From Chlorobiota bacterium (lineage in GTDB: Bacteria; Bacteroidota; Bacteroidia; Bacteroidales; VadinHA17), in NCBI GenBank assembly GCA_013152085.1, contig JAADHC010000015.1:1-33725 (forward strand): 33,725 nucleotides of DNA, read 5' to 3'. The notes beneath the pieces were generated by a model. That model was not told the origin of the DNA. It worked only from the letters and a program-made list of their open reading frames with translations, and ran no database searches. The position numbers and the translations under genes are program-made. How positions within the stretch are numbered: the stretch's first letter is position 1; each line of letters begins with the position of its first letter. Below are positions 3,673 to 33,725 of this stretch, piece by piece.

Positions 3673-5118
3673 CTACTTCAACCTTGCCAGCGAATCGAGT
3701 TGCAGGAACGGAAAAGCAGAAGAGGTGATGTGTTCTTTCAGCATGATCTTCTTCATCTTCTTTACAATATCCGGGTGGTCAGACGCTACATCACGGGTCT
3801 CTCCGGGATCTTCTGCCAGGTTATAGAGATGGATCTGCAGGCTGTCTTTGAAAATGTTTCTCCGGATTCCTTTCCAGTTGTCCATGCGAACCATCTGTTG
3901 ACCGCCATAGCTTGAAAACTCCATATAAAGATAAGGATGTTCCTGTTGTTCTCCTTTGCCCAAAAGGGTCGGAGTAAAAGATATCCCGTCAATATCCGGA
4001 GGAACCCTGTTTTTGTTACCTGTTATCTCAAGCAGGGTAGGCATCACATCCTGAAATGCGCCGATGTGATCCGAAACCATGCGTGCAATGATCTTCCCGG
4101 GCCAGCGAACCACCAGCGGAACCCGGATTCCACCTTCATAAACACTGCCTTTCCTTCCCCTGAAAGGACCTGAACTATGAAAGAAATCGGAATCCGATCC
4201 CCCAAGGCGGTTGTAAGTAGGGCCATTATCCGATGTAAAAAATATAACCGTGTTATGATCAAGGCCCAAACTGTCCACCAGGTGTAAAAGCTGACCGATT
4301 CCTTCGTCCATGTGGGTGATCATGGCAGCATAACCTGCATGCGGGTATGGGTGTTGCAGATAATGATGGTGTTCATACGGAGTCTCCGGAATCTGTCCTT
4401 TGTATTTTTCCAGAGATGAATCCGGTACCTGGATGGAGAGGTGGGGGATAATAAACGGCAGGTAAAGGAAAAAGGGCTTGTCATGGTTCTGACGGATAAA
4501 GGATTCGGCTTCGCGGATAAACAGATCCTGTGCGTATTGTTTCCCTGTCAGACTTCGGGTATTCCCTTCCAGCCGGACGGTATCCTGGTTGCGGATCAGG
4601 AAGCGGGGGTAATGATTGTGGGCATGCCGCTGGCAGTTGTACCCGAAAAAGAGGTCAAATCCCTGCCGGTTCGGATCTCCGGAGGATCCCATACGGCCCA
4701 GTCCCCATTTCCCTATGGCTGCCGTGGCGTATCCTGCTTTTTTAAGCAATTCCGCAACGGTGACAATACTGTCCGGCAAAGGCATCTGCCCGAGAAAACC
4801 ATCCCCGCCTTTCACTTCGTAATTATCCCTGACATAGGTATGCCCCGTGTGCATGCCGGTCATCAGCACACTGCGTGAGGGAGCACAAACGGGCGACCCG
4901 GAATAAAATTGGGTGAACTTTATTCCCTCCTCTGCCATCCGGTCAATGTTCGGAGTTCTGATGATCTTCTGCCCATAGCAGCCTAGTTCGCCATATCCCA
5001 GATCATCGGCCATGATAAAGATAATGTTTGGTTTTGCCCGTTCTTTCACTTTTTCCTTACAGCCTGTGAAGAAAAACAGAAGTAAGAAGAGAAAGAAAAA
5101 TGGAGTCACTCTTTTCAT
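3673..5118 (-). CDS. S1-family (formylglycine) sulfatase, lipoprotein
   Basis: It hydrolyses sulfate esters, most likely on sugars of a sulfated glycan, outside the cytoplasm. The N-terminus is a signal peptide ending in a lipobox (FFTGC, Cys20). The core shows the S1 hallmarks: metal ligands Asp38-Asp39 (MADDLGYGE), the formylglycine motif C-A-P-S-R at 78-82 followed by SVLMTG, GKWGLG with Lys137, a His226 region, and SDNGP with Asp297-Asn298. At 481 residues it is of normal family length and looks intact. Cys78 must be converted to formylglycine by a maturation enzyme that is not in this window. It is the last gene of a minus-strand block after GH123, GH2 and GH29, 72 bp behind the fucosidase gene, so it probably desulfates the same glycan. 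Subfamily and exact substrate cannot be assigned by eye. Confidence 0.92.
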   Translation of the reverse strand: MKRVTPFFFLFLLLFFFTGCKEKVKERAKPNIIFIMADDLGYGELGCYGQKIIRTPNIDRMAEEGIKFTQFYSGSPVCAPSRSVLMTGMHTGHTYVRDNYEVKGGDGFLGQMPLPDSIVTVAELLKKAGYATAAIGKWGLGRMGSSGDPNRQGFDLFFGYNCQRHAHNHYPRFLIRNQDTVRLEGNTRSLTGKQYAQDLFIREAESFIRQNHDKPFFLYLPFIIPHLSIQVPDSSLEKYKGQIPETPYEHHHYLQHPYPHAGYAAMITHMDEGIGQLLHLVDSLGLDHNTVIFFTSDNGPTYNRLGGSDSDFFHSSGPFRGRKGSVYEGGIRVPLVVRWPGKIIARMVSDHIGAFQDVMPTLLEITGNKNRVPPDIDGISFTPTLLGKGEQQEHPYLYMEFSSYGGQQMVRMDNWKGIRRNIFKDSLQIHLYNLAEDPGETRDVASDHPDIVKKMKKIMLKEHITSSAFPFLQLDSLARLK

Positions 5119-5190
5119 ACGTTTAAAATTTTATTCATTTTATTCATAAGATCGCTTCGCTCAGTTCATGTTCGTTTCGTATTTTGAGAA

Positions 5191-6981: not shown

Positions 6982-7027
6982 GACTTTACGGATATTTTAC
7001 CTGGAAAAACATATAATTATTAGTTTA

Positions 7028-7069
7028 ATTATCTACGTAGTTAACTACGTAGTTAACTACGTAGATAAT
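7028..7069. promoter_or_regulatory. Perfect 42-bp palindrome built from three TACGTA cores
   Basis: The site is a perfect inverted repeat and at the same time a tandem repeat with 12-bp period: TACGTA occurs three times, separated by GTTAAC twice, with flanks ATTATC and GATAAT. It lies between the GH2 stop and the GH29 start. No T-run follows on the minus strand, so it does not look like a terminator; an operator for a dimeric regulator or a single-strand hairpin signal is more likely. The function is inferred, not shown. Confidence 0.6.
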
Positions 7070-7129
7070 CCTCTAAAACCTTGATGTGATCAGTCATCCA
7101 TTATAAAATTCAACAAATTAAACGTTACA

Positions 7130-10360
<3,231 letters not shown>

Positions 10361-10540
10361 TTACCAGTTCTGTCCGGGATACTTTAGGTATTTTTTTCAT
10401 GTGTAAGGTAACGGTGGAATATCCTGACGATCCGGTGTTTTTTTCTTAACGTCATTCCAACATCTTGCATTTATGCCCATTTCCCATCCGGCCGAGTCCA
10501 TTTCGTCTCTGTCTCAATCATCCCGGGTTCAAAATATATC

Positions 10541-12307
10541 TCAGAATCCGGTCAAAAGGTTAATGAGTTTTTTCCCTTCTTCTATTCTTTTTTGCTCAGC
10601 GGCTGATTCCGGGTTCCCACGGATATTTTCCAGAAGATCTTTCAGCTTCTTAAATTGTTTCAGTTGATCAGTATTTTCGGAAGATTTCATAATTTCTTCA
10701 AGGATCCTGATCTTCTCGTAATCCTGAATTCCTTCGCGCAGTTTTTCAAATCGTATGGATGATAAAGGACCGGGATAGATCAGGTAGGTATCACCGGCAG
10801 GCCAGGTGATGAAACGGGAGTCGGTAAGCGGGGTTTCGGGCCATGAGTTATATGCCCAACGCAGGAAACCGTCAAACCCGTATGCGGCTGCAACCCATCC
10901 GGGAAATGTCGCTTCGGACGGAGGTGAAAAAGTAAAAGTATTCGGGTATGGAATACCACAGGCAACATAGAAAGTGGTCTTTTTACCGTTATTGCGCCGT
11001 TTGGCAAGCATTTCGGAATTTGCCTGATCAATCAGTCGCCAGTTGAAGCTGAAATCATGAACCGCAGGCATCAGGTCCGGATAATAATGGCCGGCAAGCG
11101 TAACTTTGAATTCGGGTGCGGTTTCTTTCAGAAAAGCGAGCTGGGCAGCCATCTGCTTATGGTTGCGCTCGTCCATGGCAATGGTTGTTTTGTCGAGCCA
11201 TTCCCGTTCGCGAAGGTGTTCACGAAAATCCCATAAAAAAGGACGCCACAGATCTTCATATTCCTGACTGCCGGGTTGTAATACCCTCGTAATGTATCCG
11301 GAAGAGTCCTCTTCAAACCAGCTAAACCGGTTGCCACCGGGGACCATCGTATAACAGTTGATTTGTGCCGTTATCCCGGCATCCATAGCCGTCTCGATAT
11401 ACTGGTCAAAAATGGCGTAGTCATAATCCCATTCCCCGGAAGAACTATGCAGCCAGGTGATCATCGATCCGAAAGGATCATACGTCTGGCCATGCCACGG
11501 ATGATCTATGATGGATGTGGTTATGCATTTCTGACCCGCATCTGCTAATAAAACCAGGTATTTTCTGATCAGTTGCCAGTGTTCTTCCGACCAGAGGGGT
11601 ACTTTATGAAACCGTGCGATGGCAAAAGGATTCTGCCACAGATCAAGATGAAAAGACCAGTCGGAGGGGGGAGGCAGCATTAAGCCCTGCACGGTTATGT
11701 TATAGGTCAGGCTGGTAGAATCATTCAGAGCAGTGATGAATATATTTCCGGTATACTTGCCGGCAGGTGCATCGACGGGGATATTTACGGACACCCATAC
11801 CGGCCTTGCGGTACGGCCGGGAATATTGAATGTGCGATTGTGATGGAGGATATCTGCAGCCAGGTGCGAGGCGATTGTATCCTTGTCCCGGTGACTGCAT
11901 CCGTTGAGAAAAGCATCCGTAATGACATATCCCACCGGTGAAAGGACGACGGCAGGGGTGTCTATTTTATTTCCCCTGTCGTCAGTGAGGTTGCCTGCAG
12001 AAACTTTTACTGAGATAACATCTTCAGAACTCCAGAGAACAACCTGCGTATAAATTCTTTCCCCTTTCCATCCTGTGGCAGCCCACGAAGCCGATAACCC
12101 GTTTTCGGGCATTACCGTTCTGGCATACCGTATGTCTGTACTGCCAAATGCAGCATTCAGGCCTGCAGAGCAGTTTCCCCAGGTAGTGGCATATTGCAAA
12201 CTATCCGGATCAGAAAGTTCCGTAAATCCGGAAACCAAAGCCCCTTTTGGCCGGCAACCGGAAAACAGGGATGAGACAATAAACAGGTAAAGAAATATTT
12301 TTTTCAT
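10541..12307 (-). CDS. GH123-family glycosidase (beta-N-acetylgalactosaminidase-like), lipoprotein
   Basis: Members of this family (formerly DUF4091) release GalNAc from glycan and glycosphingolipid termini by substrate-assisted catalysis using an adjacent Asp-Glu pair. Here that pair is Asp379-Glu380 in TTIAMDERN. The N-terminus has a lipobox (SLFSGC, Cys18). Residues ~30-215 form a beta-rich N-terminal domain ending near VQGLMLPPP, and ~216-525 the barrel-like catalytic domain (HLDLWQNPFAIARF, ITAQINCYTM, VAAAYGFDGFLRWAYNSWP). The C-terminus ~530-588 is helical (LREGIQDYEKIRILEE), as in other DUF4091 proteins. It is the first gene of the minus-strand block, transcribed divergently from the cysteine operon. 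Family assignment is firm; exact activity is inferred, but an AgaI-like amino-sugar enzyme at 24.2 kb agrees with GalNAc as the product. Confidence 0.82.
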   Translation of the reverse strand: MKKIFLYLFIVSSLFSGCRPKGALVSGFTELSDPDSLQYATTWGNCSAGLNAAFGSTDIRYARTVMPENGLSASWAATGWKGERIYTQVVLWSSEDVISVKVSAGNLTDDRGNKIDTPAVVLSPVGYVITDAFLNGCSHRDKDTIASHLAADILHHNRTFNIPGRTARPVWVSVNIPVDAPAGKYTGNIFITALNDSTSLTYNITVQGLMLPPPSDWSFHLDLWQNPFAIARFHKVPLWSEEHWQLIRKYLVLLADAGQKCITTSIIDHPWHGQTYDPFGSMITWLHSSSGEWDYDYAIFDQYIETAMDAGITAQINCYTMVPGGNRFSWFEEDSSGYITRVLQPGSQEYEDLWRPFLWDFREHLREREWLDKTTIAMDERNHKQMAAQLAFLKETAPEFKVTLAGHYYPDLMPAVHDFSFNWRLIDQANSEMLAKRRNNGKKTTFYVACGIPYPNTFTFSPPSEATFPGWVAAAYGFDGFLRWAYNSWPETPLTDSRFITWPAGDTYLIYPGPLSSIRFEKLREGIQDYEKIRILEEIMKSSENTDQLKQFKKLKDLLENIRGNPESAAEQKRIEEGKKLINLLTGF

Positions 12308-20901: not shown

Positions 20902-21507
20902 ATGCTGACAAACACCGATCTTTTTCACCTGGTTAACGGCTATACCTATTTTGGTATCGCTTTCTATTACATCATTTTTGATTTTGTATCACCGGTCTCT
21001 GATGAAATGTCGCTCATTACCATTGCCTATCTGGCTAAAAATGGTATTGTCAATATTTACGGTGGCGCATTGATGTCTTTCCTGGCATTATATTTCAGAA
21101 ATATTATCCTGTTTTATCTGGCCCGGAACCGGACCGGCATCATCAGTAAACTTACAGACAGATACCCTGATTTTATGGAAAATTACAAAAACAGGATGTC
21201 AAAGCATCTTTTTACGACAGTACTGATCATGTCTTTTATTCCCAAGATCAGGATTCTGGTTCCGCTGGCTGCCGGTTTCGGGCGGGTTTCCCAAACGAGA
21301 TTCTTTTTGTTTCAGGGCATTGCCCTGACTCTTTTTATCATTCTGTTTTATCCGCTGGGCATATTCTTTTATGCTGCATTCCGGTCAATTGCAGATAAAA
21401 TAGGTTCATTCAATCATTATTATCTTCTGGCCGGGCTTCTGCTTTTTACCATCCTGATCAGTTTCGTTGGTGGCAGGTACCTGATTCGCAAGATGAAACA
21501 AAATTAG
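20902..21507 (+). CDS. DedA-family (VTT domain) membrane protein
   Basis: 201 residues with about five hydrophobic segments. FVSPVSDEMSLITIAYLAKNG corresponds to the DedA motif around the conserved Pro and acidic residue. FIPKIRILVPLAAGFGRVSQTRFFLFQ corresponds to the F-x-P-x-x-R...aG...m...F motif with its essential Arg. DedA proteins sit in the inner membrane and are linked to lipid scrambling, undecaprenyl-phosphate recycling and proton homeostasis. The member here is short and rather divergent, and its cargo is not deducible. It stands alone, with about 180 bp to the next gene. Confidence 0.72.
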   Translation: MLTNTDLFHLVNGYTYFGIAFYYIIFDFVSPVSDEMSLITIAYLAKNGIVNIYGGALMSFLALYFRNIILFYLARNRTGIISKLTDRYPDFMENYKNRMSKHLFTTVLIMSFIPKIRILVPLAAGFGRVSQTRFFLFQGIALTLFIILFYPLGIFFYAAFRSIADKIGSFNHYYLLAGLLLFTILISFVGGRYLIRKMKQN

Positions 21508-21548
21508 GATTCACCGGTAATTGAGCACCTGACCGCTTTGCTATTGAA

Positions 21549-21562
21549 GCAAATACATTTGC
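21549..21562. promoter_or_regulatory. Small perfect inverted repeat, possible operator
   Basis: GCAAAT-AC-ATTTGC lies 126 bp upstream of the DUF1080 gene. The length and symmetry are operator-like, but nothing identifies a regulator. Confidence 0.3.
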
Positions 21563-21687
21563 ATCATTTATCCCTTAAAAAATCTTAAAAAAAGATAAAT
21601 AATAATGAAATATACTTAATTTTAAGGTGTTGATCAATAAATGAACAGATAACATTGTTTTTAAGTATAATTTAAAATGGTAAGAAA

Positions 21688-22395
21688 ATGAAAAAAGTAA
21701 ATTTAAAACGATTCCTTTTGGGATCGATGTTGTTCGCATCTGTGATGTTTGTTGGTTATGCCGGCATAAATCCGGATCAATCCACCGGCAAACAAGATAC
21801 GAAAGGCGAATGGAGGCAACTTTTTAATGGCAAGGATCTTACAGGCTGGAAGCATGTTGGTCCCGGATACATGACCGTTGAAAATGGCCTTATCAGAGGG
21901 CATGGTGGGATGGGCCTGTTATACTGGACCGGTGAGAAGCTTGGAAATTGTACAATCCGGGTGGTATATAAAATGCGTGATGAAAATGATAACTCCGGGG
22001 TTTTTATCCGTATCCCGATCAAACCCCGTGAAGCCTGGATGCCGGTATTTTATGGTTATGAGGTTCAGATTGATAATCGCCCTGACCTCTCTAATGAAGA
22101 TGACTATCATTACACCGGCACACTGTATTCCCTGACAAAACCTCTGGCAAAAACGGGAAAACCGGGGCCTGAATGGAATACTATGGAAATTACTTTAAAA
22201 GGATCCAGAACCATTGTTTATTTGAACGGGGTAAAAGTGACGGATTATACCGAAGGTGATCCGGTTCCGGCCCGTAAGTTTGATTTCGAACCCTATCGTG
22301 GGCCCCGTCCTGATTTCGGTTATATTGGTTTACAAAACCATAGCGATAAGGATGTCGTGTTTTTTAAAGAAGTTTCCGTTAAATCTCTCAAATAA
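21688..22395 (+). CDS. DUF1080 (3-keto-disaccharide hydrolase family) secreted protein
   Basis: 235 residues with a Sec signal peptide (about 1-26). The single DUF1080 domain is a concanavalin-like beta-sandwich seen from WRQLFNGKDLTGWKHVG through GLIRGHGG, GNCTIRVVYKMRDENDNSGVFIR, YGYEVQIDN, WNTMEITLKG and YIGLQNH. Several members of the family cleave 3-keto-glycosides produced by Gfo/Idh/MocA dehydrogenases. Here the next gene, 56 bp downstream on the same strand, encodes exactly such a dehydrogenase, which supports this role. Catalytic residues of the family are not firmly known to me, so activity is inferred from family and neighbour. Confidence 0.85.
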   Translation: MKKVNLKRFLLGSMLFASVMFVGYAGINPDQSTGKQDTKGEWRQLFNGKDLTGWKHVGPGYMTVENGLIRGHGGMGLLYWTGEKLGNCTIRVVYKMRDENDNSGVFIRIPIKPREAWMPVFYGYEVQIDNRPDLSNEDDYHYTGTLYSLTKPLAKTGKPGPEWNTMEITLKGSRTIVYLNGVKVTDYTEGDPVPARKFDFEPYRGPRPDFGYIGLQNHSDKDVVFFKEVSVKSLK

Positions 22396-22451
22396 AAGTT
22401 ACAGGGAATAAGCAAATCTTTGAATCCATTAAACATGATAAAAAAAATATT

Positions 22452-23978
22452 ATGGAGAAGACAGATCATAATAAGAATGAATCGCCGGGTATTTCCCGGA
22501 GGAAGTTTGTTGGAATGACGGCATCCGGGGCAACGGCTCTTACTGTCGTTCCAAGTTTTGCAGTTAGCGGGCTGGGGCATGTTGCCCCGAGTGATAAGTT
22601 GCATATAGCTGCTGTCGGTTGTGGGGGTGAAGCAGCAGCAGATATCCATACTTTTATAAAAACGCCTAAGAAAAACGTCGTCATATCCCACCTTTGCGAT
22701 GTGGATGACCGGCAGGCGGCACCCATGCGTAAAGAATTTCCTAAAGCACCCTTTTATCATGACTGGCGTGAGATGTTCGATAAGGAGCACGAAAATTTTG
22801 ATGCGGTGACTGTCGCCATTCCCGATCATAACCACGCTCTTGTCGGCCTTAGTGCTATGCAACTTCACAAACATTTATATCTTCAGAAACCTTTAACGCA
22901 TGATATCTATGAAGCCAGGATTTTAACGGAGGCTGCGAAAAAATACAAAGTAGTTACCCAGATGGGTGATCAGGGTGCATCATGCGATGGAATGCGCACT
23001 TTACGGGAATGGCTGGAAGCAGATATCCTCGGTGACATTGAGAAAGTTTATTGCTGGACAGACCGGCCGGTTTGGCCGCAGGGAATTCCCTGGCCTGATA
23101 AACATCCCCAGGTTCCCAAAGAGCTTAACTGGGATCTTTGGCTGGGCACAGCGAAAGAAACGGAGTATATTGACAATATGGTTCCTTTTAACTGGCGCGG
23201 CTGGTGGGAGTTTGGTACCGGAGCCCTTGGCGATATGGGATGCCACATTATGGGTCCACCTTTCAAATTACTGGAACTTGGCTATCCTACAGAGGTGTCG
23301 GGTAGTGCCAGTACGGTTTATGACGGTATTTTCTCAGAAGCACAATATCCTGAAAGCGGGCCTGTTTCCAGTTCAATCCGTTTTAAATACAATTTAAAAA
23401 ACGGAAAAACCCTTGATCTTTACTGGATGGACGGAGGAATTACCCCTGAGCGACCCGAAGAATTAGATACTGATAAGAATATGAATGAGATACTCGGAGA
23501 CTGGCCGGGGTTGAATGACTATGAAGGCAGTACCTTGTTTATCGGGACCAAAGGAAAAGCAGCATGTGGCTGGGGTGGCCGTAATCCGATATTGTTGCCA
23601 CTTTCGTTGAATAAAGACCTTCATGTACCTGAAAAATATCCACGGGTAGCAGGTGGGATGGATGGACATTACTGGCAATTTGTGGATGCCTGTATTGCGG
23701 GATATGGAAATGCCGAAGTGGATTCTCCATTCGAAGGTTATGCCGGTCCGCTTACCGAAACCGTACTGATGGGAAATTTATTGTTACGCAGTTTTAATAT
23801 ACGTGAAAAAATAAAAAGAAAAGATCCCGTATATGGCAACCTGGAAGGATTTGTGTATCCCGGTCGTTATATTAACTATAAATGGGACGGAGAAAACATG
23901 CGGATAACCAACTTTGAACTGGCAAATCAATTTGTGAAAAGAGAATACCGGGAGGGGTGGGGAACCCTGAAACTGTAA
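22452..23978 (+). CDS. Tat-exported Gfo/Idh/MocA-family oxidoreductase
   Basis: 508 residues with a twin-arginine signal (SRRKFVG, residues 15-21, followed by a hydrophobic stretch to about 43), so it is folded with cofactor before export to the periplasm. The Rossmann fold starts HIAAVGCGGEAA (52-62); QKPLTHD (145-151) holds the catalytic-region Lys, with Gln in place of the more common Glu of EKP. The C-terminal domain includes WRGWWEFGTGALGDMGCHI. Such secreted members use a tightly bound NAD(P) and oxidise or reduce sugars, often at C3. Paired with the preceding DUF1080 gene it suggests oxidative glycoside cleavage in the periplasm. Substrate unknown. Confidence 0.88.
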   Translation: MEKTDHNKNESPGISRRKFVGMTASGATALTVVPSFAVSGLGHVAPSDKLHIAAVGCGGEAAADIHTFIKTPKKNVVISHLCDVDDRQAAPMRKEFPKAPFYHDWREMFDKEHENFDAVTVAIPDHNHALVGLSAMQLHKHLYLQKPLTHDIYEARILTEAAKKYKVVTQMGDQGASCDGMRTLREWLEADILGDIEKVYCWTDRPVWPQGIPWPDKHPQVPKELNWDLWLGTAKETEYIDNMVPFNWRGWWEFGTGALGDMGCHIMGPPFKLLELGYPTEVSGSASTVYDGIFSEAQYPESGPVSSSIRFKYNLKNGKTLDLYWMDGGITPERPEELDTDKNMNEILGDWPGLNDYEGSTLFIGTKGKAACGWGGRNPILLPLSLNKDLHVPEKYPRVAGGMDGHYWQFVDACIAGYGNAEVDSPFEGYAGPLTETVLMGNLLLRSFNIREKIKRKDPVYGNLEGFVYPGRYINYKWDGENMRITNFELANQFVKREYREGWGTLKL

Positions 23979-24065
23979 TTTCAGAGCAGTATGGATCTGT
24001 TATTCCCGGTGATTAGCCGGACAAAAAGAAAAGTGGTACTTGAATATTTTCTCCTGGTGAAACTT

Positions 24066-24124
24066 GGTACTTTTGTGACTTTGTGGTTAAGGAAATACCA
24101 CGAGGTCACAAACACAAAGGTACC
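24066..24124. repeat. Imperfect inverted repeat of CTTTGTG-type units
   Basis: The left arm 24066-24087 (GGTACTTTTGTG then ACTTTGTGGT) pairs with the right arm 24097-24124, which on the other strand reads GGTACCTTTGTG, TTTGTG, ACCTCGTGGT. The right arm has one extra 6-bp unit and the spacer is 9 bp. It lies between the oxidoreductase and the AgaI-like gene and resembles the scattered CACAAAG/CTTTGTG intergenic repeats seen in many bacterial genomes. Confidence 0.5.
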
Positions 24125-24191
24125 ACAATGATTTCTGTTATTTTTCATCCGCCATTGCGGAATGTAAAGATGGATTAATAATGCGGTGGGT

Positions 24192-24935
24192 ATGAAAATT
24201 GAAATTTTGGATAATTATGATGAATTAAGTAACAAAGCAAAGGATATCCTTGTGCAGGAAATCCGGAAAAACAAGCGTTTGTTACTTTGTGCCGCCACCG
24301 GAGGGAGTCCTGCCGGGATGTACTTTCAGATTGCCGTGGAATATCAGAAACAACGCGGACTTTTTTCACAAATCCGAGTTATCAAACTTGATGAATGGGG
24401 CGGTCTTTCCATGGATGAACCGGCAACCTGCGAGGCCTATCTGCAGGAACACCTGGTAAAACCGCTGGAGATCCCCACTTCCCGTTATACCGGTTTTCAG
24501 AGCAATCCGGATGACCCGGAACAGGAATGCCGGAGGATACAATCATTTCTTCAAACTGATGGTCCGGTAGATGTATGTATCCTGGGACTTGGCATGAACG
24601 GCCATCTTGCGTTAAATGAACCTGCTGACTTTTTACACCCTTACTGCCATGTGAATACACTGACCGATATGTCACTAGGTCATTCCATGCTTTCAGGATT
24701 AAAAAAGAAACCTGCATATGGTCTTACTCTCGGGATGGCTGATATCCTGCATGCGCGCAAAATCATCTTCCTGGTCAGCGGAAAAAAGAAACGTCAGGTT
24801 TTTGAACAGTTTCTGACGAAGAAGATCACGACCTTCCTTCCGGCTTCACTTCTGTGGCTGCATCCGGATGTTACCTGTCTGGCTGACAGGGAAGTTGCCG
24901 GCAATATGGATATCCCTGACCTGTCTGTCCCCTGA
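24192..24935 (+). CDS. agaI: Galactosamine-6-phosphate deaminase/isomerase (AgaI-like; NagB superfamily)
   Basis: It would convert galactosamine-6-phosphate to tagatose-6-phosphate and ammonia in the cytoplasm. ATG 24192 is preferred to the GTG two codons upstream. Superfamily motifs (numbered from this ATG): TGGSP at 36-40, KLDEWGGL around 65-72, and GLGMNGHLALNEP at 132-144. In NagB the corresponding motif is GxGxDGHIAFNEP; the Asp is Asn136 here, as in E. coli AgaI as I recall it (GLGKNGHLGLNEP). Other stretches also follow AgaI rather than NagB: CHVNTLT, YGLTLGMADILHARKI, and PASLLWLHPDV near the C-terminus. The 247-residue length fits. It is followed after 23 bp by a sugar transporter and then a ROK kinase. 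6-Phosphogluconolactonase and NagB are the alternatives. Confidence 0.75.
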   Translation: MKIEILDNYDELSNKAKDILVQEIRKNKRLLLCAATGGSPAGMYFQIAVEYQKQRGLFSQIRVIKLDEWGGLSMDEPATCEAYLQEHLVKPLEIPTSRYTGFQSNPDDPEQECRRIQSFLQTDGPVDVCILGLGMNGHLALNEPADFLHPYCHVNTLTDMSLGHSMLSGLKKKPAYGLTLGMADILHARKIIFLVSGKKKRQVFEQFLTKKITTFLPASLLWLHPDVTCLADREVAGNMDIPDLSVP

Positions 24936-24958
24936 TAATCACTAAAAACCCAATCAGT

Positions 24959-26230
24959 ATGCGAAAAAGAAGTGTATTTATTGTTTTCCTGATCCTCTGT
25001 ATCTGGTTTTATATCTCATTTGTAACCAATATCCTCGGCCCGCTTATTCCTGTGATCATTGATAATTTCCGGCTGAGCCTGACCCTTGCCGGATTTCTTC
25101 CTTTTTCTTTTTTCCTGGCCTATGGAGTGATGTCAATCCCGGCAGGAATGTTTACCGAACGTTATGGAGAAAAAACGGCCATGCTGGTGGCATTCGGTTT
25201 TACCTTTACAGGTGCACTTTTCTTTGCTTTATTCCCGGTTTACCGGATCGCATTGGTTTCTCTCTTCACCATCGGCATCGGGATGGCGATCCTGCAGGTC
25301 GTAATCAATCCCCTTATGCGTGTAGCGGGAGGAGAGGAGCATTTTGCATTCAATTCGGTACTGGGTCAACTGGTTTTCGGGGCAGGCTCGTTTGTCAGCC
25401 CGTTTGTCTTTTCCTATATGATGCAGAATGTTCCTGTTCGTCCCGGTGAAGGAAACGTACTGACAACCACTTTATCTTCCCTTGTTCCGCATGAACTTCC
25501 ATGGGTTTCACTTTACTGGATTTTTGTGATCGGAGGCATACTTATGTTTGTCATTATGGCGTCTGTGCACCTTCCGAGGGTCGAGCTTAAGGAAGATGAA
25601 AAAACAGGTGCTGTCCGCGGTTATCTGCAACTGCTGGGACAAAAAAAAATTATTCTCTTTTTCCTGGGGATATTTGCCTATGTTGGCACGGAACAAACAC
25701 TTGCCAACTGGATGAGCAAATTTCTGAAAACATATCACGGTTTTGATCCTGTGGTTCAGGGAGCAACTGCCGTAGCCTGGTTCTGGGGACTGATGTCAAT
25801 AGGCTGCCTGGTCGGACTTGTGATCCTGAAACTTGTCGATTCCAAAAAAGTATTGCGAATTTTCAGTTTACTGGCTATGGCGGATGTAGCCCTGGCATTG
25901 TTTGGCCCTGCCCGCCTTTCCCTGTTGGCTTTTCCCGCTGCCGGTTTCTTTATCTCCGTGATGTATTCCGTGATCGTTTCGCTGGCTCTCAATTCCGTGG
26001 ATAAGCATCATGGGACATTCTCGGGTATCCTTTGTACGGGAATCCTCGGCGGTGCAGTTATCCCCCTGATCGTCGGATGGCTTGGCGACCACCTCGGACT
26101 GCGCACGGGCATGTTGTTTGTATATATCACGCTTGGATATATTCTTTTCATATCCGTCTGGGCAAAGCCGCTCATAAACAATAAGACAGTATCTTTAGCA
26201 GCTTTGTTCGGAAAAAAACAAACAGGATGA
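24959..26230 (+). CDS. FHS-family (FucP-like) MFS sugar transporter
   Basis: 423 residues, about 12 membrane helices, of the fucose:H+ symporter (FHS) branch of the major facilitator superfamily, distinct from the sugar-porter branch at 19-20 kb. Typical FHS stretches are FFLAYGVMSIPAGMFTERYGEK, INPLMRVAGG, FNSVLGQLVFGAGSFVSPF, FAYVGTEQTLANWMSKFL and the C-terminal half GTFSGILCTGILGGAVIPLIVGWLGD. Known members import L-fucose, glucose/galactose or GlcNAc. Being 23 bp after the AgaI-like gene and ahead of a ROK kinase, it most likely imports an amino sugar such as GalNAc, or a monosaccharide released by the upstream glycosidases. It would act in the inner membrane, driven by protons. Confidence 0.88.
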   Translation: MRKRSVFIVFLILCIWFYISFVTNILGPLIPVIIDNFRLSLTLAGFLPFSFFLAYGVMSIPAGMFTERYGEKTAMLVAFGFTFTGALFFALFPVYRIALVSLFTIGIGMAILQVVINPLMRVAGGEEHFAFNSVLGQLVFGAGSFVSPFVFSYMMQNVPVRPGEGNVLTTTLSSLVPHELPWVSLYWIFVIGGILMFVIMASVHLPRVELKEDEKTGAVRGYLQLLGQKKIILFFLGIFAYVGTEQTLANWMSKFLKTYHGFDPVVQGATAVAWFWGLMSIGCLVGLVILKLVDSKKVLRIFSLLAMADVALALFGPARLSLLAFPAAGFFISVMYSVIVSLALNSVDKHHGTFSGILCTGILGGAVIPLIVGWLGDHLGLRTGMLFVYITLGYILFISVWAKPLINNKTVSLAALFGKKQTG

Positions 26231-26302
26231 TTTTTATAGCTATTCTGTTGAATACGGGAAACAGATATTAACTTTATCCATACTGAAAACAATACATACA
26301 TT

Positions 26303-27148
26303 ATGAAAATCATCGGGATGGACATCGGAGGTACCAAGATCAGTGCCGCATTGATTGACGGAAACCGCATCGTAAAAAAAGAATCCGTTCCGACACCCTA
26401 TGATCAGCCCAAAGAGATTGTATTAAACACAGTTACTGTTATTCTGGAGCATCTTTTTGATCGCGATATTACCGGAATCGGTATCGGTGTTCCGGGGCTG
26501 GTTGACCTCGAAAAGAACCTGGTACTGGATGTACTCAATATCCCATCCTGGGAGACCGTATCGTTGAAAGCCATCCTGGAAGATCATTTTCACAAACCGG
26601 TATTTGTAAACAATGATGCCAATTGTTTTGCCCTTGGGGAGAAATATTTCGGTAAAGGGAAAAAATACAGGAATTTTGTAGGCGTATCTCTCGGCACTGG
26701 CCTGGGTACAGGGATTATCATTAATGACCATCTCTATTCAGGACGTTATTGCGGTGCGGGCGAATTCGGTCTGCTTATCTATAAAGACAAATGTCTGGAG
26801 GCCTATGCAAGCGGACAGTTTTTCAAAGACCAGGGTCTTTCCGGAGCTGACCTGGCCAAACAGGCCGGACAGGGCGGAGCGGAAGCGATTCGCCTCTTCA
26901 GAACTTTAGGTGAGCATCTGGGCAGGGCGATGATAGATATCCTTTTTGCCCTGGCTCCCGAAGCGGTGATCCTGGGCGGATCGGTTAGCCGTTCTTATCA
27001 TCTCTTTGAGGAAAGTATGCGGTCCGTACTCGAGAAAGAATTCCCCTATCAGCGGCTTTACCGTGCCTTGAATATCGAAATCTCCGATCTGAAAGACAGC
27101 GCAATCTTCGGTGCTTCATCCCTGGTGCTGGAAAATATGGGCATCTGA
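26303..27148 (+). CDS. ROK-family sugar kinase
   Basis: 281 residues. The ATP phosphate loop is DIGGTK (7-12), the catalytic base Asp105 lies in VNNDANCFALGE, and a second phosphate loop is GTGLGTG (131-137). The sugar-binding Glu of the ROK E-x-G-H motif is Glu154 (GAGEFGLL), but the His is replaced by Leu. The zinc-binding CxCGxxGC cluster is missing; only CLEAYASG remains. Kinases without the zinc cluster occur in Bacteroidota. No helix-turn-helix is present, so it is an enzyme rather than a repressor. It is third in the AgaI-transporter-kinase set (72 bp after the transporter), which suggests phosphorylation of the imported hexosamine at O6. The true substrate is not provable here. Confidence 0.85.
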   Translation: MKIIGMDIGGTKISAALIDGNRIVKKESVPTPYDQPKEIVLNTVTVILEHLFDRDITGIGIGVPGLVDLEKNLVLDVLNIPSWETVSLKAILEDHFHKPVFVNNDANCFALGEKYFGKGKKYRNFVGVSLGTGLGTGIIINDHLYSGRYCGAGEFGLLIYKDKCLEAYASGQFFKDQGLSGADLAKQAGQGGAEAIRLFRTLGEHLGRAMIDILFALAPEAVILGGSVSRSYHLFEESMRSVLEKEFPYQRLYRALNIEISDLKDSAIFGASSLVLENMGI

Positions 27149-27547
27149 CATTTTATTGTATTCTGCTGATTTATAAACCCTTTATCCAATAATGACTCTT
27201 CAGGGAGACTATTTCAGTTTTTCAAGGTATTACCTGTTTGTTATTGACCCCTTTCAGGGATCGTGATTGATATTGTCTTATAACCGTCCTTTGCAAGGAC
27301 GGTTATTTACATTTAGCCACTTCGTGGCAAATTTTAAAATATCTTTGTATATTTTCACGGGTGCTTTGTATGAAATTAAGGATTATCTTCTATTAAATTA
27401 TTCAAGCCCTGTAAGGGCTGAACATGAATCATGAATTACCGCTGATGCAATCGGCGGTAAATAATACCCCCTTCATCATCCCCGAAGGGGGTGAATAATA
27501 TCCTGTGTAAATTAGTAAATACCAGTATTTCCCGGACCCGGTGCCGG
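27149..27547. repeat. Gene-free stretch with a cluster of six short palindromes
   Basis: Between the convergent kinase and GH130 genes. Palindromes: CCCT-TTC-AGGG (27249-27259); TAACCGTCCTT-TGC-AAGGACGGTTA (27281-27305, followed by TTT and probably the terminator of the kinase operon); GCCAC-TTC-GTGGC (27316-27328); AGCCCT-GTA-AGGGCT (27405-27419); TTACCGC with GCGGTAA (27436-27460); ACCCCCTTC with GAAGGGGGT (27466-27492). They differ from one another in sequence, so this is not a tandem or CRISPR array. It looks like a REP-type intergenic mosaic. No gene is seen. Confidence 0.6.
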
Positions 27548-28705
27548 TTATTCAGGCGTATTTGTGGCAACGGCAATTTTTGAATCGGCTGTTCCGTAGT
27601 AGAGATACCAGGTCCCGTTAAAATGGGCAAGTCCTTCCACAAAACATACATTATTGACCTGTCCGGTGATCTCGTATGGTTTTTCAGGTTTGAAGAAATA
27701 ATTATCAGTACGATCCTGAAGCTTTTCAGGATTTGCCGCATCATATAAAGCCTGCCCGGCAGCGTATGTTCCGTCGGGAAGGGTTGTATCACCGTATTCC
27801 TTACTATTCTTGCTGTTATAGATGAGTAAAATCCCCTTGCCGGTAAGCATGGCAGGAGGTCCGGGTTCAACGAGCTCACTGTCGAATTTCCCTTTTCTGG
27901 GTTGCAGTACAGGCAGGAGATCTTCACGGTAGTCACGCCGGTCATCCGGTATTGACGAATGATCTGTATTTTGCTTTTCTACCGGGGTCCAGTTGATCAG
28001 ATCTTCAGAATAAGCCAGGAAAAGATCCGTATCACCGAAATACATCCAGTATTTTCCTTTGATTTTCGTGGCAACAAGTCTGTTATCTTTGAGTTTGCAA
28101 ACAATTGAACCGGACTTGGAGTGGATCCTGACATATTTTCCGTCAAAGGCTTTGGTAAACACAGAGCCATGCTTTTCCCAGGTAAAGAGGTCATTTGAGG
28201 AGGCAACAAAAAGCCTCGGTTTATCTCCATTCCAGGCCGTATAAGTCATAAAATAGGTACCGCTGTCATTTTCAACGATACGGGGATCCTCACATCCGCC
28301 TTCCCATTCAAATTCTTTAAAAGCATCATTGTCAGGATACAGTACGGGTTCAGGATTCCTTTTGAAGTTTAATCCGTTTTCACTTTCGGCGATGCCGATC
28401 CGGGAGGTTCCCAGTAGTTTTCCGATCTTGTCTTCGGCCCTGTATAAAAGGTATATTTTCCCGTTTCGAACCACCGCGGCAGGATTAAAAACATCTTTGG
28501 CTTCCCAATGTACCAGGGTGTCACGTACAGGACATAAAAAGACCGTGCTGTCCAGGGGCCCAAGTATCGGGTTCACATCATCAACTTTTACAAACGGACC
28601 CAGCATCCAATCATTGTCTGAAGAAGGCCCGGGTTGATAACAACCCGTTATGAACAGCCCTGCAGTAAAAATAAGTAAAACAGTTTTCATTAAATAGTTT
28701 TTCAT
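27548..28705 (-). CDS. GH130-family glycosidase/phosphorylase, lipoprotein
   Basis: Start taken at ATG 28705 (a GTG lies one codon upstream, another ATG at 28690). The signal peptide ends in a lipobox (FITGC, Cys22). The rest is a five-bladed beta-propeller of the GH130/GH43-like type: FNPAAVVRNGKIYLLYRAED, SRIGIAESENGLNF, EWEGGCEDPRI with the conserved Asp140, TYFMTYTAWNG, GKYWMYFGDTDLFLAYSEDL, and FVEGLAHFNGTWYLYYGTADSKIAVA at the end. GH130 enzymes act on beta-mannosides, either as phosphorylases (cytoplasmic) or as hydrolases (often exported). Lipidation and export argue for the hydrolase type, since phosphate-dependent cleavage is used inside the cell. The length of 385 residues is normal. 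It is single, with no obvious operon partner. Confidence 0.83.
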   Translation of the reverse strand: MKNYLMKTVLLIFTAGLFITGCYQPGPSSDNDWMLGPFVKVDDVNPILGPLDSTVFLCPVRDTLVHWEAKDVFNPAAVVRNGKIYLLYRAEDKIGKLLGTSRIGIAESENGLNFKRNPEPVLYPDNDAFKEFEWEGGCEDPRIVENDSGTYFMTYTAWNGDKPRLFVASSNDLFTWEKHGSVFTKAFDGKYVRIHSKSGSIVCKLKDNRLVATKIKGKYWMYFGDTDLFLAYSEDLINWTPVEKQNTDHSSIPDDRRDYREDLLPVLQPRKGKFDSELVEPGPPAMLTGKGILLIYNSKNSKEYGDTTLPDGTYAAGQALYDAANPEKLQDRTDNYFFKPEKPYEITGQVNNVCFVEGLAHFNGTWYLYYGTADSKIAVATNTPE

Positions 28706-28708
28706 CAC

Positions 28709-29079: not shown

Positions 29080-29868
29080 ATGATCAGACTGTTGAATATT
29101 ACTGTTTTAAGACTACCCATATTGAGTATATTATTGTTTAATCCAACTCTAATTTATGCTCAACAGTCTACAACGATCTCAAAACCGGAACTTGTTTTCA
29201 GAAATGACACTCTCATTATTAAATACAATTTTGATCATTGCAAAAACGAAGAGCTATATAATGTTTGGATTGAGGCTGCAACCATGGATGGGAAGAAACT
29301 TTCTGCTCAATCGTTAACCGGAGACATTGGAAATGAAATTATCTGTGATACCGATAAAATTATTTACTGGGATCTGATCGGTGATTCTCTTTTTTTGGAT
29401 GATGTAATATCAGTAAAAGTAAAGGCAACAGCAAGTGATCAAAGGCATGCACAAAAAAATAAAGATCCGAGTTACATTCTTTCTTCATTGATTTTCCCTG
29501 GTAGTGGATTAGTATTATTAAAGCAGAACAATAAACCCTATTGGATTATGGGAATCGTTGGATATATGGGTATTGCTTCTACACTTCATTTTTATCAGGC
29601 AGCTAAAAATGATTATCAAGATTTCCAACAAGAAGAGGATTTGGTTCAACAGCAGCAGTTTTTTGAATCATATAAGAATAATCAAAAAATAATGCGTATT
29701 TCCGCCATATCAACAGGATCTCTTTGGCTGACAAATCTTATATGGACCATTACCTCACCAAGGCATAAATCAATGAATATTGCTTTTAAGAATAATAGTG
29801 TAAGAATTGGAGCTGTAACCATGCCCGGTTCTTTTACTTCCGGAATAATTATAAAATATGAATTTTGA
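29080..29868 (+). CDS. DUF5683-like membrane protein with N-terminal beta domain
   Basis: 262 residues. It has a signal peptide (to about IYAQQ, residue 29), a beta-sandwich-like domain (about 35-120, LVFRNDTLIIKYNF, YNVWIEAATMDG, IIYWDLIGDS), then a membrane part with two or three hydrophobic segments. The second half shows SYILSSLIFPGSGLVLLKQNNKPYWIMGIVGYMGI, which resembles the PG-x-G...kpyw motif of DUF5683-type proteins, then a Gln-rich coiled stretch (QQEEDLVQQQQFFESY) and a C-terminal strand ending in EF. The function is unknown. It is the first gene of the AT-rich right part of the window and stands alone. Confidence 0.55.
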   Translation: MIRLLNITVLRLPILSILLFNPTLIYAQQSTTISKPELVFRNDTLIIKYNFDHCKNEELYNVWIEAATMDGKKLSAQSLTGDIGNEIICDTDKIIYWDLIGDSLFLDDVISVKVKATASDQRHAQKNKDPSYILSSLIFPGSGLVLLKQNNKPYWIMGIVGYMGIASTLHFYQAAKNDYQDFQQEEDLVQQQQFFESYKNNQKIMRISAISTGSLWLTNLIWTITSPRHKSMNIAFKNNSVRIGAVTMPGSFTSGIIIKYEF

Positions 29869-30386: not shown

Positions 30387-31916
30387 ATGAGAGACTTTTT
30401 ACTTGATGTACAAAACAAGATCAGTAATAATCCTACTTTAATTAAGGATAAAAATCCATTTTACTATCATCAGGAAAGTCGAAGTAAAGAACAGGAAGTC
30501 TGTAAAGTTATCCCATCCGTAGAAATTATCAGAAAATTTGTTCCTGATAATAAAAAGTCACAAAGTTTTGAACATGAAATAATCAGAGGGTCTAGCTTTG
30601 CTGTTTTGAAATATATTTTAAGTCATCTTGACCTGAAGAGAATTAATAAGATTTTACTTACGTCTACACATGAACTTAATGCCAAGAACATTCTTAATAG
30701 TGTTAAATATCTTGCCAAAATTAATAACATAAGGGCTATTGTCAATCTCAACCAGGTTAATTATTCAAGGTTTATTAATAAATATTTTGAAAGTATTAAT
30801 AAAATTCTTCCTGATACAGGAATTTACATAGGTTGTGTTGAAACGGTCAGACAGCGGAATAAACATCTCTTTTATCGTTATAAAAGGAGGTTTATTGCCA
30901 GCCTGATTATATTCTTCGAATTTCTATTTCACAGAGTTTTTCCAAAAATCAATTTCTTAAAAGGACTTTATTTTGGGATAACCAAAGGTAAATACCGGTT
31001 TTTAACTATTGCCGAAACACTTGGCAGACTTATATCATGCGGGTTTGAAATCATAGAATACAAGCAGATCAGAAACTTAGTCTATTTTGTAGTTATTAAA
31101 ACACGTGAACCATATTATGACACAAATCCATCTTATGGGCCTGTTGTGAAGATAAAGAAAACTGATAAAGATGGAAAAGTTTATTATAGATACAAATTTA
31201 GACTGCATCACCCTTATTCAGAATACATTCCCGATCATGTTCTTATGTTGAATGCCACTTCAAGACCGTCATCAACCAGTGGAGATTTAAGATATACTTT
31301 CTTGGGAAAAACAATATATGAAATTTTCTTGCCTTCAATCGGGAATTATTTTCGTCGAATTACGTTAAAACTAAACTCTATCTATGAAAGAGTTCCTAAA
31401 GTTAGAATATTTCCTAAATATACAATAGAAGACTTTTTTTATATAAAAAGGAGTCTGGGGAAGGGGGGCAAATCAATCAAAATCTACAAGTTCAGAACAA
31501 TGGTTAAAAATGCGGACCAATTGGATCATATGTTAACTGAGTTTAATAGCTATGGTAATCCTGTGAATGACACACGGGTTACATCATTTGGTAAATTCAT
31601 GAGAAAGGTATGGATTGATGAACTACCTCAAATATATAGTCTGATTAAAGGTGATATTAAATTAGTCGGTATAAGACCGATGAGAGAGTGTGATTGGCAA
31701 AGATATCCTACCGGTTTAAAGGAAGAGGCGCTTAAACAAAAACCTGGTTTAATGGGCATTCAATATGGTTCACCTTATCGTGATAATTACGATGATCATC
31801 TGAGCTATTTTCAGGAATATATTGAGCAATGGAAAAAATATCCGTTAAAAACGGATATCCATTATTTTATTAGAATTTGGTACAATATTATTTTCAAAGG
31901 TGTTAGAAGCACTTAA
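30387..31916 (+). CDS. Bacterial sugar transferase (polyprenyl-phosphate sugar-1-phosphate transferase family), atypical
   Basis: It would start surface polysaccharide synthesis by moving a sugar-1-phosphate onto a lipid carrier. The 509 residues fall into three parts. Residues 1-250 match the N-terminal half of a Bacteroidota transferase family (HRVFPK, ITKGKYRFLTIAETLGRL, SCGFEIIEY, NPSYGP). Residues ~255-345 look like a degenerate catalytic core: KFRLHHPYSEY stands where KFRTMHPYSEY is expected, and the DELPQ segment is replaced by FLPSIGN. Residues ~350-509 hold an intact core: KIYKFRTM (365-372), IDELPQ with the Asp411-Glu412 dyad, KLVGIRPM (425-432), KPGLMGIQYG, and TDIHYFIRIWYNIIFKGVRS. 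The usual membrane re-entrant hairpin before KFRTM is not evident; the main hydrophobic segment is 169-182. No other polysaccharide gene is in view. Confidence 0.78.
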   Translation: MRDFLLDVQNKISNNPTLIKDKNPFYYHQESRSKEQEVCKVIPSVEIIRKFVPDNKKSQSFEHEIIRGSSFAVLKYILSHLDLKRINKILLTSTHELNAKNILNSVKYLAKINNIRAIVNLNQVNYSRFINKYFESINKILPDTGIYIGCVETVRQRNKHLFYRYKRRFIASLIIFFEFLFHRVFPKINFLKGLYFGITKGKYRFLTIAETLGRLISCGFEIIEYKQIRNLVYFVVIKTREPYYDTNPSYGPVVKIKKTDKDGKVYYRYKFRLHHPYSEYIPDHVLMLNATSRPSSTSGDLRYTFLGKTIYEIFLPSIGNYFRRITLKLNSIYERVPKVRIFPKYTIEDFFYIKRSLGKGGKSIKIYKFRTMVKNADQLDHMLTEFNSYGNPVNDTRVTSFGKFMRKVWIDELPQIYSLIKGDIKLVGIRPMRECDWQRYPTGLKEEALKQKPGLMGIQYGSPYRDNYDDHLSYFQEYIEQWKKYPLKTDIHYFIRIWYNIIFKGVRST

Positions 31917-32014: not shown

Positions 32015-33433
32015 TTAATGACGAAACACTTTAGGATCAGTGATACGTAAATCATTTTTGAATGCAGCGACAAATGCTTGCTTGTATCCGGCTTTTCGGC
32101 ATAAGGTATTAAATACTAATGCTTTTTTAATCGAATCAAATTCTCCGACAGTATAACGATATGCCCCTTTATAAAAATATTCGAAGGCAGTATATTCCTT
32201 GTTGTTTATTGTGACGATAAAGTTACCTTTAGGTTTTGTGCTTGACAGAAATTGAATCCGAAATACGACAGGAGATACCTTTTCTTTTGATGGAATGATC
32301 TTTTCCCGGGGAGGAATATTCTCTTCTTGCTGCTTAGCAGGAACCTTTGCCACTTTTTTGTTTATAATGACAGAAGTATCAGGATTTTCTGGTTTCAAAG
32401 GTGTTTCCACCACCGTTTTACTAGTTGGTTTCTTAACAGCTTTTATTCTAGCAGGAATGTTTACCTTAAAAAAATGTGTTTGCACATTCTCAGGATCATG
32501 GATTGATACAAGTACTGCCAGCGTATCGTCCCGGCTAAGTTTAAACATCATTTCATCATATCCGGAGTTTATTTCAGACCCAAGGTTAACCGGAACATCC
32601 CAATCTTCTCCGTTATATTTTGACATATATATATCATATCCGCCATATCCGTTTTCCTTGTTCGAAGAAAAAAATAAATTATTATATATATCAAGAAAAG
32701 GAAAAATTTCATTTCCATCTGAGTTAATCTTGTTCCCCAGGTTATTAGGATTTGTCCAACCTGAAGAATTATGAGTTACTACGAACAAATTTGCTCCATT
32801 ATTCTTTGAAGGCATATCTGAGGAAAAAATTAAAATCTGTCCATTAAGAGAAACAGCAGGATGCATATATGAATACTCTTTTTTACAAAAAGTCAAAACT
32901 TCAAGTTCCTTTGACCAGCCAGTATTTTTTTTCCCCGTTGAGTTTGTTTCAACCGTCTGGTAAATCTGAGACTTTCTTTCGTTCTTCTCATTAAGTTCAC
33001 TTTTTGTAAAATACATTGTATGGTAATCTCCTGTAAACGAAAGGGCTCCTGGGGAATAGGGAAATGGGAAATTATTACAGAAATAATCATACTGTTTTAA
33101 TTGATAACTTTTCAATGGAGCATAATAGGTATCATATCTTCCAAAAGAAATATAATCAGCCAATCCATTGTAATTGTTTTTTGTATTCATTATAAAAATA
33201 ATCCCATCCTTATAAAATTGTATTCCCTGAGAACTATTTACAGCATCAATTGTAAATGAATCTTTATAAAAATGAATTGCTTCTTCAGCAGAATCCAAAG
33301 CAACAATGGAACTGGAGTGATCCTTTGTTAGCTCGGAAATATACTTGCCTGCACAATATACAGGAATTTGAGTCATTGAGAAACCAATCAGGAGGAATAT
33401 TAAATAAATAAGTAATAGTTTCTTCATATCCAT
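32015..33433 (-). CDS. PD40 beta-propeller protein with C-terminal SPOR-like domain
   Basis: 472 residues with a signal peptide (MKKLLLIYLIFLLIGFSMTQ, mature from about 28). Residues ~130-330 contain PD40/TolB-like propeller repeats: GALSFTGDYHTMYFTKS, HPAVSLNGQILIFSSDMP, NEIFPFLDIYNNLFFSSNKENGYGGYDIYMSKY, YDEMMFKLSRDDTLAV. A Lys/Pro-rich linker follows (about 335-387). The end (~388-462) resembles the SPOR-like tail of Bacteroidota proteins (FRIQFLSS, YRYTVGEF, CRKAGYKQAFVAAF). Similar proteins in type IX secretion and gliding loci end in an OmpA domain instead, so peptidoglycan contact here would be through SPOR. It lies 22 bp after a PorP/SprF-like gene on the same strand, and the two likely form an operon. 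An in-frame ATG at 33427 is an equally good start. Confidence 0.7.
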   Translation of the reverse strand: MDMKKLLLIYLIFLLIGFSMTQIPVYCAGKYISELTKDHSSSIVALDSAEEAIHFYKDSFTIDAVNSSQGIQFYKDGIIFIMNTKNNYNGLADYISFGRYDTYYAPLKSYQLKQYDYFCNNFPFPYSPGALSFTGDYHTMYFTKSELNEKNERKSQIYQTVETNSTGKKNTGWSKELEVLTFCKKEYSYMHPAVSLNGQILIFSSDMPSKNNGANLFVVTHNSSGWTNPNNLGNKINSDGNEIFPFLDIYNNLFFSSNKENGYGGYDIYMSKYNGEDWDVPVNLGSEINSGYDEMMFKLSRDDTLAVLVSIHDPENVQTHFFKVNIPARIKAVKKPTSKTVVETPLKPENPDTSVIINKKVAKVPAKQQEENIPPREKIIPSKEKVSPVVFRIQFLSSTKPKGNFIVTINNKEYTAFEYFYKGAYRYTVGEFDSIKKALVFNTLCRKAGYKQAFVAAFKNDLRITDPKVFRH

Positions 33434-33455: not shown

Positions 33456-33725
33456 TTACCAATTACGGTTATATATAGCTTTACTTTCCTTTCTGCCAAT
33501 ATTCAGTCCGAGAGTGAATTCAACAGTTATTCTCCTATCACTCCATAGAATATTATCGTGATAAGGAAATTCCACATAAGTTCCAACAAATATTCGGGGA
33601 AACTGAAGATGCATTAGAAATGATAACTTATTTATGTCATTTAGATAAGTTCCAAAAAAAGAATTTTTATAATAAAGTTTAAGACCAGGGTGAATATTTT
33701 TCTGAAACATATTGAGATTCTGATT
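33456..33725 (-). CDS. C-terminal part of a PorP/SprF-like outer-membrane protein
   Basis: The frame is open to the window edge, so only the last 89 residues are seen. The stretch has alternating outer-membrane strand character (LKLYYKNSFFGTYLNDINKL, FPRIFVGTYVEF, ITVEFTLGLNIGR). The pairing with a PD40 protein immediately downstream is the usual context for PorP/SprF-family proteins, which go with type IX secretion and surface attachment in Bacteroidota. The fragment alone is too short for a firm family call; any other outer-membrane barrel would look similar. Confidence 0.5.
   Translation of the reverse strand, partial: NQNLNMFQKNIHPGLKLYYKNSFFGTYLNDINKLSFLMHLQFPRIFVGTYVEFPYHDNILWSDRRITVEFTLGLNIGRKESKAIYNRNW

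Follow-up and report, generated by a model that had tools for sequence, protein, structure and literature searches.

Monotopic phosphoglycosyl transferases commit the cell to the production of surface glycans. PglC consists of a small single core that is directly preceded by its membrane hairpin, with no N-terminal domain, and in WbaP the hairpin also lies directly before the core. Passages of a published study of WbaP (PMC10942596) give four transmembrane helices per chain and a cytosolic extra domain that differs from the N-terminal domain described below. Single-core Bacteroidota transferases, among them L035 in genome G010, L009 in genome G046 and L002 in the genome of the present sequence, have an N-terminal region with an RVxPK hairpin segment and a C-terminal signature in common with the protein analyzed here. 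The window, i.e., the whole 33,725-nucleotide stretch of DNA under study, encodes a relative of these proteins that combines two cores, with the following features:

30387..31916, + strand: double-core sugar transferase open reading frame (ORF), 509 amino acids in a single uninterrupted frame, stop codon included in the coordinates
31125..31355, + strand: core 1, a degenerate, truncated transferase core (residues 247-323), from a profile of single cores (E 6.9e-14)
31209..31253, + strand: residues 275-289 of core 1, a conserved block that reads H-x-YSEY-x-PDH-x-L-x-LN in each of the four double-core proteins
31332..31337, + strand: site of the lost Asp-Glu dyad in core 1, Pro316-Ser317 or a deletion here, from motif spacing and pairwise alignment
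31299..31385, + strand: predicted linker helix between the cores (residues 305-333), of low confidence, poorly conserved and overlapping the end of the core 1 match
31407..31913, + strand: core 2, an intact transferase core (residues 341-509), with the Bac_transf match at 349-496
31488..31502, + strand: KFRTM motif of core 2 (residues 368-372)
31617..31631, + strand: DELPQ motif of core 2, containing the dyad Asp411-Glu412

A sequence-only reading of the locus had proposed that residues ~255 to 345 are a catalytic segment that has lost its motifs and is followed by an intact copy. Core 1 (residues 247 to 323) matched positions 2 to 81 of a 168-position profile (domain E 6.9e-14) made from 125 single-core relatives, all double-core proteins being excluded. 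The same region of the three other double-core proteins scored E values of 7.3e-13, 1.6e-8, and 9e-9, and the best of 1000 shuffled core 1 sequences reached 0.72. The proposed segment is thus related to the catalytic core, but it amounts to about half of one, as it stops shortly past the dyad position and the VGIRP-arginine stretch is missing. The expected Bac_transf match of this segment did not materialize: a Pfam scan of residues 1 to 350 yielded no match at E up to 1, NCBIfam transferase families matched only from residue 350 on, a PDB sequence search with residues 1 to 340 gave no match at E up to 1, and the family-specific profile alone detected core 1.

The losses in core 1 were borne out. 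KFRTM is replaced by KFRLH (residues 270 to 274) in the window protein, and its Lys is lost in the three other double-core proteins (L006, L007, and L008). At the 46-residue spacing of single cores, the Asp-Glu position falls on Pro316-Ser317, and when gaps are allowed in aligning core 1 to L035, a close single-core relative, Asp-Glu-Val is deleted. The dyad is therefore absent under either alignment, and it is also gone in L006, L007, and L008. As had been read, core 2 is intact, with KFRTM at 368 to 372, Asp411-Glu412 in DELPQ, VGIRP at 427 to 431, and a Bac_transf match at residues 349 to 496 (E 6.6e-29, 101.2 bits, cutoff 27). A PDB sequence search matched core 2 to WbaP (E 2e-19) and PglC (8g1n and 8e37, E 1e-11). 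Passages of the PglC literature (PMC12802240) list Asp93, Glu94, Lys59, Arg88, and a further arginine as active-site residues, for which motif positions and alignments give K368, R406, D411, E412, and R430 as counterparts in core 2. The single-core L002 from the same genome aligned to residues 72 to 286 of the window protein and then, 24 bases on, to residues 390 to 508; since this alignment skips from 286 to 390, the window protein has ~100 extra residues. Judged by its motifs and alignments, the N-terminal core is a truncated, catalytically dead remnant rather than a complete second domain. Three observations support the coexistence of a putatively dead and a putatively live core within a single protein: the significant profile match, the loss of the dyad in four genomes, and a layout that is kept together with the gene neighbors. 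This upholds the proposed pairing of a pseudo-catalytic with a catalytic unit, except that the former is a remnant and not a domain.

The double-core layout was found in 4 of 117 family genomes (G000, G010, G012, and G038), which include the window's genome and belong to three genera, so that the survey of homologues for a tandem arrangement added three genomes and two further genera. The three additional loci (L006/L062, L007/L063, and L008/L064, the last cut by its contig end) encode proteins 53, 51, and 47% identical to the window protein (L006, L007, and L008, respectively); the G038 protein ends inside core 2 at a contig end. Matches spanning both cores at E 1e-45 came from G000 and G012 in an order sample and from G000 alone in phylum and class samples, with no further both-core match at this threshold among the 393 (order), 395 (phylum), and 395 (class) genomes. 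These samples overlap, three candidates were scored in most genomes and open frames were checked in the fetched loci, so distant double-core proteins could be missed. In a plasmid collection, 700 records matched, with no single place that covered 80% of the query, and the 20 places listed lay within residues 273 to 508. We also noted frames of 648 to 684 residues in another class of the same phylum (L107, L110, L111, and L112), which are single-core relatives with a long N-terminal extension.

That an assembly error had fused two genes was a concern, as all four assemblies are in many contigs and three of their records are metagenome bins. However, the same junction occurs on four separate contigs, the three others encoding proteins at 47 to 53% identity to that of the window, and the neighboring genes agree as far as the contigs extend. 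An artifact is practically out of the question, and we rejected it on the strength of the three further contigs.

Motif spacing set core 2 apart from the single cores. Of 131 single-core ORFs, 130 have a distance of 46 residues from the KFRTM Lys to the dyad Asp (124 identified by pattern, 6 by eye), and the remaining one has 48. The ORFs were counted as distinct strings, so that a gene truncated at different locus edges may have been counted more than once, and two WcaJ-like or short proteins with a spacing of 36 were excluded. In core 2, this spacing is 43, a value found in none of 133 single-core or WcaJ-like ORFs in the fetched loci checked for spacing. The KFR position and D-x-R are 30 residues apart in core 1 of every double-core protein and in 126 of the 131 single cores, and 27 apart in core 2 of the three double-core proteins that extend so far. 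A form of the YSEYxPDHxLxLN element lies between KFRTM and the dyad in the 131 single cores; core 2 is without it.

The sequence-only reading had offered internal duplication or fusion as the origin of the two cores. Comparison of the trees favors fusion, with a divergent core from the same broader group as the partner, over internal duplication, since the N-terminal part with core 1 nests beside the single-core L035 and L009 (100/98), while core 2 falls outside all 33 single cores (97/94). The core 2 branches are long, at 1.05 and 0.87 changes per column versus 0.31 for the stem of the N-terminal part. Duplication of one core followed by fast change of core 2 would account for the C-terminal signature of the subfamily in core 2, and for a core 2 profile that scores better with cores of this subfamily (E 6.8e-34 for L002 from the same genome and 1.2e-41 for the best single core) than with the WcaJ type (9.7e-19 for L004, a WcaJ-like protein of the same genome). 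Furthermore, approximately unbiased (AU) tests rejected neither core 2 held with L035 (p 0.108) nor core 2 held with L009 (p 0.0764). Against duplication stand the position of core 2 outside all single cores, its long branches, and its spacing of 43 rather than 46. Core 2 held with both L035 and L009 was rejected (p 0.0066), but the L035 and L009 cores held together by themselves were rejected as well (p 0.0213), so this weak point provides no argument against duplication. A 75-column tree with both cores had little resolution, and searches with core 2 in 114, 237, and 238 genomes, with spacing checked in part of the fetched loci, revealed no gene that could have donated it as a free-standing core. 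Altogether, we regard duplication as possible but somewhat unlikely. As a separate observation, L035 and L009 pair by their N-terminal parts (92/80) but their cores refuse this pairing in the AU test, which suggests that cores have been exchanged elsewhere within the family too.

The part of the protein that precedes core 1 contains two predicted features:

30564..31109, + strand: N-terminal class I methyltransferase-like domain (prediction), residues about 60-241, from structural matches (best Z 9.1)
30888..30983, + strand: membrane hairpin, helix-break-helix (prediction), residues 168-199, within the methyltransferase-like domain and at a hydropathy peak

The hairpin, which had been reported as not visible, is predicted as helices 168 to 187 and 189 to 199 (block pLDDT 77 to 89) on the segment where the window protein is most hydrophobic, and some 70 residues separate its end from the first KFR. 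The earlier statement holds for the second KFRTM, as no strong hydrophobic segment adjoins core 2 and the sole predicted hairpin is that at 168 to 199. No strong hydrophobic segment occurs before residue 170 of the window protein either, so the four N-terminal transmembrane helices of the WbaP/WcaJ type are missing. The model of the double-core protein was built from 22 alignment rows and had a mean pLDDT of 65.4 and a pTM of 0.41, a level at which the packing of the cores is not readable. Its alignment (A7) contained shorter unmodified fragments; in its predecessor (A5), the first halves of the single cores had been aligned to core 1 and the second halves to core 2. A single-core model (mean pLDDT 57.7) showed a similar helix-break-helix at 165 to 184 and 186 to 196.

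Among the structural matches listed for the double-core model, residues ~60 to 241 matched methyltransferases or, for a few titles, methyltransferase-fold proteins, most ranges being about 60 to 241. The best Z was 9.1, with superpositions of 157 residues at 6.3 Å and 146 at 3.6 Å, on a model of modest confidence. Against the double-core model, 14 of 1000 chains reached a Z of 8 or more, and a best Z of 7 to 8 is common with this method; methyltransferase-type chains recurred against the single-core model at a Z of 6.5 or less. Pfam named no domain for the N-terminal part in the window protein or in nine single-core relatives. Class I S-adenosylmethionine (SAM) methyltransferases have a glycine-rich SAM-binding motif after the first strand, and by eye we saw no GxGxG, the usual form of this motif, in INKILLTSTHELN, a region modeled at a pLDDT of about 50. 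The resemblance of the N-terminal domain to methyltransferases is thus suggestive, a lead drawn from predicted structures. According to the models, single-core loci including L035 (1910-3139), L009 (1135-2397), and L002 (952-2511) share such a methyltransferase-like, hairpin-bearing N-terminal region.

For the cores, the model gave strands 253 to 259 and 265 to 271 and helix 276 to 288 in core 1, and strands 351 to 357 and 363 to 369 and helices 376 to 385 and 400 to 421 in core 2. The N-terminal half of core 2 (351 to 400) was modeled at a pLDDT of about 46 to 61, with four sequences only over most of this stretch, and the model was poor at 281 to 350. The best Foldseek match of the double-core model was PglC (E 3.8e-5, TM 0.41 by target length, rmsd 19.6), and the C-terminal part of the single-core model matched WbaP and PglC at Z values of 7.7 and 7.5.

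To describe constraint, we compared the four double-core proteins region by region. Amino acid identity among the three others was 0.71 to 0.79 in the N-terminal domain, 0.48 to 0.51 in core 1, 0.26 to 0.41 in the linker, and 0.72 to 0.80 in core 2; between the window protein and the others, it was 0.57 to 0.58, 0.37 to 0.39, 0.10 to 0.19, and 0.62 to 0.67, respectively, the core 2 comparisons that involve G038 covering 50 columns only. Across all six pairs, differences in core 1 amounted to 0.25 to 0.39 at second and 0.52 to 0.70 at third codon positions, and in the linker to 0.44 to 0.70 and 0.42 to 0.74. The linker helix was also considered as a candidate amphipathic membrane anchor: its moment clearly exceeded that of shuffles in one of the four proteins (0.007), was borderline in two (0.050 and 0.078), and did not exceed it in one (0.259). 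The reading frame is open in all four, and 11 of the 15 positions at residues 275 to 289 are identical across them. From the region identities, the codon positions, and this invariance, it follows that core 1 is relaxed yet partly constrained rather than neutral; the constraint might reflect folding needs alone.

These data bear on what core 1 does. It could be an evolutionary scar, decaying after the fusion and left as a linker without a role: core 1 changes much faster than the neighboring regions and has lost its second half, the linker behind it is little constrained, and the model is poor throughout that stretch. Decay of this kind sits badly with the invariant positions at 275 to 289, which include a Pro-Asp-His found in none of the 131 single cores (most of which have Gln at the first place), and with second codon positions that are clearly more conserved than third ones in a frame kept open by all four proteins. 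We therefore rate the scar as unlikely. All four double-core proteins retain Arg272 and the YSEY block, as would suit a regulatory pseudo-core that controls core 2 and still has a nucleotide- or lipid-binding site. The non-catalytic domain of WbaP, implicated in uridine nucleotide binding in passages of PMC10942596, offers a precedent. Such a function is improbable, given that core 1 lacks the VGIRP-arginine stretch and that three of the four proteins have lost the KFRTM Lys that aligns with the active-site Lys of PglC.

The genes next to the double-core ORF are also conserved:

29080..29868, + strand: DUF5683-like protein of 262 amino acids, the conserved upstream neighbor (Pfam below cutoff, 22.9 of 26.7 bits; neighbors in L037, L038, and L039 42-44% identical)
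32015..33433, - strand: PorE-like protein with a PD40 repeat, the conserved downstream neighbor (NCBIfam T9SS_PorE, E 4.3e-31, below the family cutoff; 43-44% identical in L037 and L038)
33456..33725, - strand: PorP/SprF-like protein, truncated at the window edge so that its C-terminal end remains (44% over 78 residues to the L037 PorP/SprF; no family match alone)

The order DUF5683-like gene, double-core gene, PorE-like gene, PorP/SprF-like gene occurs in the window, G010, and G012 (where the PorP/SprF-like gene was assigned by a 30% match to that of G046), and its first two members occur on the G038 contig. The PorE-like gene lies on the opposite strand, convergent with the double-core gene. 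Between the latter and the DUF5683-like gene, G010 and G012 have an extra frame of about 148 residues, and the window has none that long. Among five relatives in which no double-core protein was found, a DUF5683-like gene matched in two (G046, 46%; G029, 33%) and PorE-like genes matched in all five, so the presence of a PorE-like gene says little. In G046, the DUF5683-like gene and the small gene that follows it in L037/L038 are present, and the contig ends 317 bases on, at the expected start of the double-core gene. In the same genome, a distance of about 5 kb separates the single-core L009 from PorE-like and PorP/SprF genes, and a polysaccharide export gene is next to L009. Neighborhood thus provides a lead toward a tie with type IX secretion.

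Several observations were made alongside. In G046, a 364-residue ORF with a weak exosortase match (E 0.003; L040, 6254-7345) lies between a CHU_C type IX signal-domain gene and L009, and the PorE-like gene (L040, 663-2331) is split over two overlapping frames, the result of a frameshift or stop that is either genuine or introduced by assembly. Pfam found no glycosyltransferase among 19 other ORFs of the window. Positions 3673-12307 hold a cluster of sulfatase, alpha-L-fucosidase, GH2 beta-galactosidase, and GH123 genes, likely a glycan-degradation locus, and positions 20902-28708 hold a series that includes several sugar-metabolism genes, for 3-keto-disaccharide hydrolase, Gfo/Idh/MocA, glucosamine-6-phosphate isomerase type, MFS, ROK, and GH130 proteins.

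On balance, we consider it probable that the protein is a membrane-bound phosphoglycosyl transferase that gained a second core, in which core 2 is active and core 1 serves as a non-catalytic dock or spacer. In this scheme, the ancestor would have been a single-core enzyme with a methyltransferase-like domain, a membrane hairpin built into it, and then one core. A second, divergent core would have been added to the C-terminal end of this enzyme, and the old core would then have lost both the catalytic dyad and the portion that follows it. Conserved motifs and solved relatives suggest that core 2 performs the chemistry, and the models suggest that the single hairpin of the N-terminal domain anchors the whole protein to the membrane. 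The pattern of constraint would be consistent with core 1, which comprises a beta hairpin and the YSEYxPDHxLxLN helix, being kept as a dock or spacer between the N-terminal domain and core 2 that positions the latter. As a putative phosphoglycosyl transferase, the protein probably starts the building of a surface sugar chain. In the most tentative step of the scheme, the glycan product may be destined for the cell surface, perhaps in coordination with the neighboring type IX secretion genes. A bolder and quite unlikely version is that the YSEYxPDHxLxLN element absent from core 2 is contributed by the dead core 1, so that two half-dedicated cores on one membrane hairpin would together form the active enzyme, with a product tied to the type IX module; if so, a pseudo-core would act as a structural cofactor inside a phosphoglycosyl transferase. 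A natural combination of a dead half-core with a live core would help to tell structural from catalytic parts of the core. The double-core protein also bears on how a core works with its membrane hairpin far off in another domain, and it draws attention to a Bacteroidota subfamily with a predicted methyltransferase-like, hairpin-bearing N-terminal domain.

Among the matches listed in a search of the open-licence PubMed Central literature, we found no tandem or pseudo-core phosphoglycosyl transferase, nor one beside PorP/PorE genes; a network study of this enzyme family may describe related fusions. The double-core protein is a genuine variant within a well-known enzyme family, undescribed among the open-licence papers listed. 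With large monotopic enzymes of the WbaP/WcaJ type (Salmonella WbaP, 8t53), it shares the Bac_transf catalytic core with its dyad and arginine motifs; unlike it, WbaP has no second core. Among the single-core Bacteroidota transferases, the N-terminal part of L035 is 57% identical to that of the double-core protein over 221 columns, and L002 has several N-terminal transmembrane helices, which the double-core protein lacks. Whereas these single-core relatives possess one intact core with a motif spacing of 46, the double-core protein combines a putatively dead half-core with a second core whose spacing is 43.
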